Assembly (NCBI GenBank): GCA_001797465.1 | Contig: MGPQ01000019.1 | Coordinates: 62,001-126,000, forward strand | Length of the DNA: 64,000 bases | DNA from: Deltaproteobacteria bacterium GWB2_55_19 | Lineage (GTDB): Bacteria > Desulfobacterota > GWC2-55-46 | Reading direction: 5' to 3' | Part shown: piece by piece, positions 17,506-23,119 of the stretch | Position numbering within the stretch: position 1 is the first letter of the stretch | Layout: each line of letters begins with the position of its first letter | Notes under the pieces: generated by a model | What the model was told of the DNA's origin: nothing | Databases searched by the model: none | The model's input: the letters and a program-made list of their open reading frames with translations, nothing else | Position numbers and translations under genes: made by a program

Positions 17506-17534
17506 TTGACATGCCCTTTCAAAAGGAGTATCAT
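17506..17534 (+). promoter_or_regulatory. Consensus-like sigma-70 promoter upstream of candidate RNA A
   Basis: TTGACA, a 17-bp spacer and TATCAT form one of the strongest promoters in the window, 40 bp after the lpxL stop. No open reading frame with a ribosome site follows, which points to a non-coding transcript starting near 17541. Confidence 0.7.
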
Positions 17535-17540
17535 ATTAAT

Positions 17541-17690
17541 AGGTAAAGGGCATATCGGCGGAAGGAGATGAGGATCAAGTAATATCCGAGAGGGGTCCTT
17601 CCGGAACGGGGTGTGCAAGCCGACCGCGAGTTTGCGATGCCGGAAGCCTGAACCGCTCCCTTGGACTACCACCTGGTTGAAAAACTCTTC
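17541..17690 (+). ncRNA. Candidate small RNA A (6S-like hairpin)
   Basis: The stretch downstream of the strong promoter can fold into one long rod. GGGTCCTTCCGG near 17615 pairs with CCGGAAGCCTGAACC near 17640-17655, with TGCAA and TTTGCG stacking inside, while AGGT...AGGG at the 5' end can pair with CCCTT...ACCT near 17670-17685. A rod with a central unpaired bubble and a length near 150-180 nt is what 6S RNA looks like, but I cannot confirm the family. The 3' end is not marked by a clean terminator. Confidence 0.4.
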
Positions 17691-17766
17691 TCCAAAACCG
17701 GTATGCTCTTTATACTTTGGTGGTTATAAGCTCGTGATTTTAAGGGTTTTTTTGCCTCGTTGAGGC

Positions 17767-17794
17767 TTGCAAAATTTTGTAGATGTGCTAAAAT
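17767..17794 (+). promoter_or_regulatory. Sigma-70-type promoter for candidate RNA B
   Basis: TTGCAA and TAAAAT are separated by 16 bp, giving a predicted start near 17801. The next gene on this strand is tRNA-Sec, beyond a strong terminator, so the promoter probably serves the structured RNA between them. Confidence 0.55.
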
Positions 17795-17800
17795 AAGGAT

Positions 17801-18076
17801 AGGACAGGAGGGTCTCGAAGCCAAAGCAGGAATGCGTAACTCCCATCCGTGGGCGCGTATAAACCGCCTAAAATGGCCTTGGAGGCAGGTCCCGAAGGGA
17901 TAACAGCCAGATGGCAATTATCCGAAGGGGTACGGATCCAGAAATGGTTCACGGCCCGGAAGGGGACAGAGGCCGCCAGGGACCAGCGGATTGGAAAAAA
18001 GTGGCTTTGAGGCCGCCTGTGCAATGGGATTGTTGAGAAGGGAAGGTAGTTAAAAAAACTATCTTCCCTTTTTTTT
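17801..18076 (+). ncRNA. Candidate structured RNA B of unknown family
   Basis: A promoter at 17767-17794 and a strong terminator at 18038-18076 bracket about 275 nt with no plausible coding frame on the + strand. The 5' part CAGGAGGGTCTCGAAGCC (about 17805-17822) pairs with GGCTTTGAGGCCGCCTG (about 18003-18019) as a long closing stem. Internal hairpins include CCCA-TCCG-TGGG, TCCC-GAA-GGGA and GGATAA...TTATCC. I do not see the hallmark motifs of tmRNA, RNase P, SRP RNA or common riboswitches. The family is unknown to me. Confidence 0.55.
18038..18076 (+). terminator. Rho-independent terminator of candidate RNA B
   Basis: AAGGGAAGGTAGTT and AACTATCTTCCCTT form a 14-bp stem with one G-T pair around an A-rich loop, followed at once by a run of T residues. 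This is a textbook intrinsic terminator and it separates the upstream RNA from tRNA-Sec. Confidence 0.9.
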
Positions 18077-18122
18077 ATTTTGTTTTGACTCGTCGGCCGC
18101 ATTCCTTTAAAATCAGCCGAAG

Positions 18123-18217
18123 GGAAGGGGACAGGGCCCGGTGGCCCTGCAGGTCTTCAAAACCTGTCTGTCGCCGTTACGGCGACCGGGGGGTTCGACT
18201 CCCTCCCCCTTCCGCCA
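18123..18217 (+). tRNA. selC: tRNA-Sec (anticodon UCA)
   Basis: This 95-nt tRNA has the selenocysteine-specific layout. An 8-bp acceptor stem (GGAAGGGG with CCCCTTCC) stacks on a 5-bp T stem, giving 13 bp in total. The anticodon loop CTTCAAA carries TCA at 18157-18159, there is a long variable arm, and discriminator G and CCA are encoded. It decodes UGA as selenocysteine with SelA, SelB and SelD, none of which is in the window. The 3' end is the start of a tandem repeat array. Confidence 0.96.
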
Positions 18218-18537
18218 GTAATTCAGAGGCATTCCAGGGGGTCGAAAGTCTTCGAGCGCCGACCGATTAGGGAGGAAGAGGGCGCAGGAAGCGCCCGGAA
18301 GCGAGAAGACCGGGGCCGTAGCGAGGAGGCGGGATGCCGACGAGAGGAGGCCGACTCCCTCCCCCTTCCGCCAGTAATTCAGAGGCATTCCAGGGGGTCG
18401 AAAGTTTTCGAGCGCCGACCGATTAGGGAGGAAGAGGCCGCAGGAAGCGCCCGGAAGCGAGAAGACCGGGGCCGGAACGAGGAGGCGGGATGCCGACGAG
18501 AGGAGGCCGACTCCCTCCCCCCTTCCGCCAGTAATTA
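18196..18537 (+). repeat. 156-bp tandem repeat seeded by the tRNA-Sec 3' end
   Basis: The last part of the tRNA-Sec gene, from the T-loop CGACT through the CCA, begins unit 1 at 18196. The same stretch recurs at 18352 and 18508, a period of 156 bp. Units 1 (18196-18351) and 2 (18352-18507) are nearly identical, with a few substitutions; unit 3 stops after about 30 bp and has one extra C in the C-run. Each unit therefore carries a copy of the tRNA acceptor/T-arm 3' half. No integrase is present. The rest of the gap up to the kinase at 18818 is AT-rich DNA with no recognisable gene. Confidence 0.85.
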
Positions 18538-22273: not shown

Positions 22274-23119
22274 TTACTCTTTGTCCAGCGTTGCCTCAAA
22301 CTCGGTCGTCTCTGCGGACCGGACCGATACGCGCTCCGCGGAATCCCGGAAGCCCTTCTGACGGACTATTATATTGTAGACGCCGTCTTTGAAGTCGAGG
22401 GTCAATGGCGTGAGCCCGTAATAGACTTCATCTACGTAGACCTTCGCACGGGGAGGGGCCGAGGATATGACGAGCCGCCCGGCTTTAGCGACCTCACTGG
22501 ACACTGTCGAGGGGCTCTCAGGGGCCGCCCCGGTTTTCGAGGTCTCAACGACCATCCCGCCCATGCCTTTCCTTATGGCCCTGGAAAGAGCGCCGTTAAT
22601 GAGCTGTCCAAGCGTAGAGCGCGAGTTGCCCATGACGCCCGCGTACCGTTCTTTTTTGAAGTCGAACGACCCGGCCCAGACCGTGCCGTGCCCTGTCTTT
22701 TTAAGGGCCGCGTCGATTGATATCTCAACCTCGTCGCGCCCTCCGACATCGAGCCTGAAGGACTTTATCGAGCTTTCGAGTACAAGCTCCGCATCCTTCT
22801 CATCCGTCACGATGAACCCCGCTGACTGAAGCTCAACCCTTAGCGCCTTTTCTACGAGCCTCGCCGGCTCTTCGGACAACACAAGCTCGGTTGCGTTCAT
22901 GTCGGCGATTGTAGCCTCTATCCTGCCGATCTTTCTCGGGTCAGCCGAGGACCTTGCGTCAACTACTTTCTCTATGCGGACCCTTTGAGGGTCTTTAAGC
23001 CTCTGCATATCCGCTGGTGGAGGGTTGTATGCGACATGGAGGGGCCCGGAGCAACCTGCGACTATCGCGAGCAGGATGAGGCAGAGCGCTCCGGAGAAGG
23101 TTTTTTTTATGTAAGACAT
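22274..23119 (-). CDS. Lipoprotein with YajG-like and PEGA domains
   Basis: This 281-residue protein starts with a signal peptide and lipobox (ILLAIVAGC), so it is probably a lipid-anchored envelope protein. Residues about 45-195 resemble the YajG/lipoprotein-16 fold, and residues about 215-275 form a PEGA domain (LVISSAPPRAKVYVDE, YYGLTPLTLDFKDG). PEGA domains are often found in surface or envelope proteins; the function here is unknown. It is the downstream gene of the minus-strand pair with the cytochrome-porin gene, with a terminator between them. Confidence 0.78.
   Translation of the reverse strand: MSYIKKTFSGALCLILLAIVAGCSGPLHVAYNPPPADMQRLKDPQRVRIEKVVDARSSADPRKIGRIEATIADMNATELVLSEEPARLVEKALRVELQSAGFIVTDEKDAELVLESSIKSFRLDVGGRDEVEISIDAALKKTGHGTVWAGSFDFKKERYAGVMGNSRSTLGQLINGALSRAIRKGMGGMVVETSKTGAAPESPSTVSSEVAKAGRLVISSAPPRAKVYVDEVYYGLTPLTLDFKDGVYNIIVRQKGFRDSAERVSVRSAETTEFEATLDKE

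Follow-up and report, generated by a model that had tools for sequence, protein, structure and literature searches.

The window analysed here is a 64,000-nucleotide stretch of contig MGPQ01000019.1 from Deltaproteobacteria bacterium GWB2_55_19. It holds, in this order and all on the plus strand, a 6S-like RNA, a structured RNA at positions 17801 to 18076 and a tRNA-Sec, with a promoter-like site for each. The structured RNA, for which homologues were found, probably starts at about 17800 and extends through the last U of its terminator. Its promoter is of the sigma-70 type (17767 to 17794; TTGCAA-16-TAAAAT), with the −35 box at 17767 to 17772, the −10 box at 17789 to 17794 and an extended −10 element, TGTG, just 5′ of the latter. 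The layout TTG...TG(T)GN-TAWAAT recurs at the matching site in most homologues from the same class, and a TANNAT box lies just 5′ of the RNA in 34 of the 36 class copies checked. The intrinsic terminator (18035 to 18076) consists of a 17-bp hairpin, with its stem at 18035 to 18073, followed by a T-run. A run of at least five U residues stands behind the closing stem P1 in 23 of 36 class copies checked, and in many homologues P1 with its U-run is predicted to act as a terminator.

The minimum free energy of the RNA is −127.4 kcal/mol, compared with −88.7 ± 4.9 kcal/mol for 200 dinucleotide shuffles, none of which was as low; the resulting z of −8.0 is partly due to the terminator hairpin. Since the homologues and their covariation point the same way independently of z, the fold is not a product of chance. 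Searching Rfam 15 over 17801 to 18076 returned nothing at the gathering threshold and, at E-values up to 10, only matches to the terminator hairpin that are plainly due to chance. No credible Rfam family was found in the homologues either. The sequence-only reading had described a folded RNA whose family is unknown, equipped with a promoter of its own, an intrinsic terminator and several internal hairpins and lacking coding capacity, and had set it apart from tmRNA and RNase P. That description holds, and no credible Rfam match, to 6S RNA or otherwise, lies over the RNA.

In its size and its end-to-end stem the RNA resembles several known RNAs, and it could be a very diverged copy of 6S RNA, tmRNA, RNase P, SRP RNA or Y RNA. 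This is highly improbable given the absence of an Rfam match and the presence of a canonical 6S RNA on another contig. Models of tmRNA, RNase P and SRP RNA do not match at this site and have high-scoring copies elsewhere in the genome (C10:375479-375833, C10:223133-223520 and C19:268102-268200), and the Ro60 (TROVE) partner gene of Y RNA was not found in the genome, which gave no PF05731 match. Protein coding was considered and rejected, as stops break the frames of 40 homologues and their lengths differ by non-multiples of three. Stop-free frames make up 15% against 7% in shuffles, across all six frames, an excess that we attribute to composition rather than to a gene. The region almost certainly encodes a new structured RNA, the first of its family. 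No earlier report of it was found in the open literature, as distinct from subscription papers and supplementary files. Categorically new is used here to mean outside all known RNA families; a new biochemical principle is not meant.

The shared fold is modelled as two nested three-way junctions, an outer one of P1, P2 and P3 and an inner one of P3, P4 and P5. P1 joins the two ends of the RNA, and its 5′ strand (17804 to 17822) and 3′ strand (18003 to 18020) are supported by both the fold and covariation. In the fold it comprises 16 bp, where 15 had been proposed from the letters, in three blocks: 17804-17808/18016-18020, 17811-17816/18009-18014 and 17818-17822/18003-18007. The consensus model gives it 17 pairs. 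P2 (17826 to 17835) is the small hairpin GCA-GGAA-UGC, whose cap is often a GNRA-type loop among homologues; GAAA or GGAA loops occupy the same position in the second class of carriers, described below. The 5′ strand of P3, CCAUCCG (17843 to 17849), pairs with CGGAUUGG at 17987 to 17994, leaving one bulged U. P4 (17851 to 17869) is the hairpin GGGCG-CGUAUAAAC-CGCCU with the conserved loop GCGURNAAACC. P5 (17875 to 17984; pairs 17875-17882/17976-17984 in the fold) is an arm of variable length, and the core from P3 to P3 measures 70 to 157 nt across homologues. The strands joining P4 to P5 and P3 to P1 are conserved and A-rich. Together with the GNRA-type P2 cap, these joints suggest that the RNA may adopt a compact tertiary fold.

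Covariation within the class was measured on a MAFFT alignment built from sequence only, with 500 shuffles for comparison. Paired cells amounted to 88%, against 81% in shuffled alignments and 30-44% with the partners slid, and two-sided changes occurred at 20 pairs against 14.0 ± 1.9. The covariation score was 0.287, compared with 0.158 shuffled and at most 0.093 slid. None of the 500 shuffles matched the observed pairing, two-sided changes or covariation score. The bulk of this signal comes from P1, which has two-sided changes at 15 of its 17 pairs in the class alignment and at all 17 in the outside-class one. The outside-class set (n = 32) shows two-sided changes at 29 pairs against 20.4 ± 1.8 shuffled and a score of 0.385 against 0.161, values from an alignment made by fitting to the model and therefore biased in its favour. 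Covariation, a check proposed along with the original description, is clear in three alignments, with 0 of 500 shuffles reaching the values observed. One pair of P4 shows a clean compensatory exchange of C-G and U-A, in 8 of 24 sequences. P3 is nearly invariant in the class alignment and is neutral on covariation there; a compensatory change from C-G to U-A occurs in the P3 of one outside-class locus, L155. The importance attached to P3 and P4 comes largely from their conserved sequence.

A BLASTN search of relatives gave about 15 real homologues, which have in common CCAUCCG ... CGGAUUGG, the hairpin GGGYGCGURNAAACCRCCU and the promoter TTG..TGTGN-TAWAAT. A covariance model, R1, was built from 24 sequences. 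With it, full-length copies were found in 42 of the 63 genomes of the window's class, in ten families (E 1e-53 to 3e-9); two more fragmentary matches raise the class tally to 44. The RNA is almost always present in one copy per genome in this class, and homologues range from 130 to 280 nt. Named records that show the sequence pattern together with the 3′ motif come from uncultured "Deltaproteobacteria" and bacterial MAGs such as GWA2_55_10, HyVt-575 and the NC_groundwater bins. Four further pattern matches, in Phenylobacterium, Chitinophaga, an actinomycete and Olsenella, lack the 3′ motif and were set aside as chance.

A sample of the wider phylum added five more credible matches. In the second class, that of genome G338, matches occur in 58 of 277 genomes from about thirteen families. 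This class is probably Desulfuromonadia (Geobacter and relatives), an assignment made from gene content, including a lysS gene adjoining one locus (L117). A third, small class contributes a 132-nt match in G155 (L120) which, in our reading of its letters, appears to hold all five helices in minimal form. Two loci, L121 and L122, match only in the purine-rich P5 part and were left out of the counts. One second-class genome, G619, has two copies of the RNA (L156 and C23:7949-8144), and a weak, short and A+T-rich second match to the model is seen at L088:2108-2168.

The tRNA-Sec noted beside the RNA in the sequence-only reading lies at 18123 to 18213. The hint that this adjacency matters is half borne out, for it is conserved as synteny: 28 of the 42 class genomes have a co-directional tRNA-Sec beginning between 1 and about 600 nt downstream of the RNA, six of them (G031, G032, G033, G041, G044 and G047) with 30 nt or less between. 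It is not required, however. The other 14 have no adjoining tRNA-Sec, and in three of these the tRNA-Sec is elsewhere. Several genomes have a tRNA-Sec and no detected copy of the RNA. The genus g6 includes complete genomes, among them the single-contig G009, in which there is no true tRNA-Sec (the best score, 44.9 bits, is a cross-hit), and it keeps the RNA. Within the window, a 156-nt tandem duplication spans 18196 to 18507 (copies 18196-18351 and 18352-18507, 97% identical); it starts in the 3′ part of the tRNA-Sec, so that tRNA-Sec 3′ ends are repeated downstream.

This arrangement raises the reading of the RNA as a cis-acting leader of tRNA-Sec, a riboswitch or attenuator in which P1 and the following U residues form a ligand-controlled terminator and read-through yields the tRNA. 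The frequent synteny and the terminator-like P1 and U-run of most copies would suit such a leader. It is nonetheless quite unlikely, as in the window a separate terminator and a promoter for tRNA-Sec (TTGACT-17-TAAAAT, 18085 to 18113) intervene. A third of the class carriers (14 of 42) do without the neighbour, the g6 genomes keep the RNA with no true tRNA-Sec, several downstream genes are convergent, and second-class copies come after 6S RNA instead. Downstream genes vary and are often convergent where tRNA-Sec does not adjoin. No constant place before a co-directional regulated gene was found among the 42 class genomes: 28 have tRNA-Sec, and the rest have convergent or unrelated genes. Because complete genomes that lack tRNA-Sec still keep the RNA, and the gene that follows it is often convergent, it is a stand-alone RNA and not a leader, and the linkage to tRNA-Sec is one of synteny rather than a regulatory leader arrangement. 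The RNA very probably acts in trans and not in cis. In three loci without tRNA-Sec (L112, L090 and L088) the convergent gene beside the RNA starts in a lipoprotein-like manner, with a CSGPL/CAGPL motif, and resembles in this the window protein at 22274 to 23119 on the minus strand.

The 6S-like RNA, which was absent from the first description, is a divergent second 6S RNA at 17541 to 17716. It scores 33.5 bits (E 9e-5), short of the gathering score of 46.4, folds as a rod with internal loops and has the promoter TTGACA-17-TATCAT at 17506 to 17534. It ends 85 nt upstream of the new RNA. The canonical 6S RNA of this genome is on another contig (C3:6160-6338, 68 bits), and the same-genus relatives G001, G002 and G004 also carry the divergent form. 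In the window's class a second 6S RNA nearby is confined to this genus (G000, G001, G002 and G004) and to G005 and G006; most of the class has its canonical 6S RNA elsewhere.

Outside the class the association is closer. In the Rfam scan, 6S RNA abuts the 5′ end of the new RNA, with a gap of about 0-10 nt, in 13 of 25 outside-class loci (L116, L117, L119, L154, L156, L157, L159, L160, L163, L165, L170, L171 and L174); in L161 it lies 281 nt upstream. So short a linker leaves no room for a separate promoter, unless one lies inside the 6S sequence, and so abutting 6S and new RNA are probably one transcript. No adjoining 6S was called by Rfam in a second-class subgroup whose P1 starts like GAGATGCCGG (L153, L158, L164, L169 and L172). 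Upstream of the RNA in L167, L168 and L175, stretches resembling a 6S 3′ end (TACGG..TTTGGAG) were seen by eye; Rfam called no 6S in L167, the one of the three that was scanned. The 6S linkage may be undercounted because of these 6S-like ends.

Direct abutment in half of the outside-class loci, and a compact core of nested junctions with invariant nucleotides, could indicate that the RNA frees the 3′ end of 6S, either as a processing element or by self-cleavage. This is improbable, since in the window's class the RNA comes with a promoter of its own and usually lacks a 6S RNA in front, and there would be nothing to release. A different possibility is a classical small RNA that base-pairs with mRNAs, in which the structure only shields the ends. 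The stand-alone promoter and terminator, single copy and length of 130-280 nt are those of such an RNA. The conserved parts, however, are helices, junctions and a hairpin loop, with no long accessible seed, and the AAGGAGG-like joint of many class members is lost in the second class, which makes the base-pairing role unlikely. The same loss removed this P4/P5 joint as a candidate Shine–Dalgarno-like element. Two other candidates were dropped: a role as a CsrA sponge, as the GGA motifs frequent in the window copy are lost in relatives, and a tRNA-like T-loop in P4, as it fits the URYAAA loop of the window's class but fails for second-class loops such as GCGUAACAACC and GCGUAUUCACC.

The best explanation of the whole, to which we give about an even chance, is a stand-alone, trans-acting RNA of a new family that is the component of a particle made with, and acting with, 6S RNA. 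6S RNA regulates RNA polymerase; it binds the holoenzyme and templates product RNA. A role as a partner of 6S is possible because the new RNA often sits directly behind it in the second class. Its transcription signals, its fold, its single copy and its abutment to 6S are shown computationally, whereas co-processing, protein binding and a tie to RNA polymerase are inferred. The gene is non-coding and normally single-copy, with an intrinsic terminator and, in the window's class, its own promoter. Where 6S and the new RNA abut in the second class, they would be made as one transcript and then cut into two. The product may be an abundant, compact RNA-protein particle made together with 6S, with the conserved P2-P3-P4 core as the candidate protein-binding part, P5 as a variable spacer and P1 as an end-protecting clamp and terminator. 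Such a particle could work in the setting of 6S, where RNA polymerase or a factor associated with it is controlled according to growth phase. The link to 6S is positional, and a functional tie to the 6S/RNA polymerase system is put forward tentatively. More speculatively, there may be an unnamed second RNA beside 6S in RNA polymerase control in at least two large classes, derived from the 6S precursor in one and an independent gene in the other.

Stand-alone structured RNAs conserved across classes are rare, and those that are known, such as RNase P, tmRNA, SRP and 6S, tend to be central to physiology. The new RNA, which has no entry in Rfam, is conserved across about two dozen families and joined to 6S in many genomes; this physical joining is a concrete clue to what it does. 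Cultured and genetically tractable carriers exist if the second class is that of Geobacter and relatives. Ms1-type RNAs bind core RNA polymerase in actinobacteria and offer a proposed analogy only, that of an RNA other than 6S working in the RNA polymerase system; no sequence relation to Ms1 was found. Like the orphan structured RNA motifs known from comparative genomics (listed, for example, in PMC2864571 and PMC11109978), the new RNA was found through conservation and covariation and has no assigned biochemical role. None of those motifs matches it by Rfam search, and the portions of the two reports consulted describe no 6S-linked motif. Among the closest known systems is 6S RNA (RF00013, ssrS), which is likewise stand-alone, about 200 nt long and closed by a long stem that joins its ends, and which in many carriers lies immediately upstream of the new RNA in physical linkage with it. 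The 6S covariance model, however, has no match over 17801 to 18076 at E-values up to 10, and both RNAs are present in the same genomes. 6S RNA is a single rod with a large central bubble, whereas the new RNA is modelled as a multibranched structure of P1 to P5.
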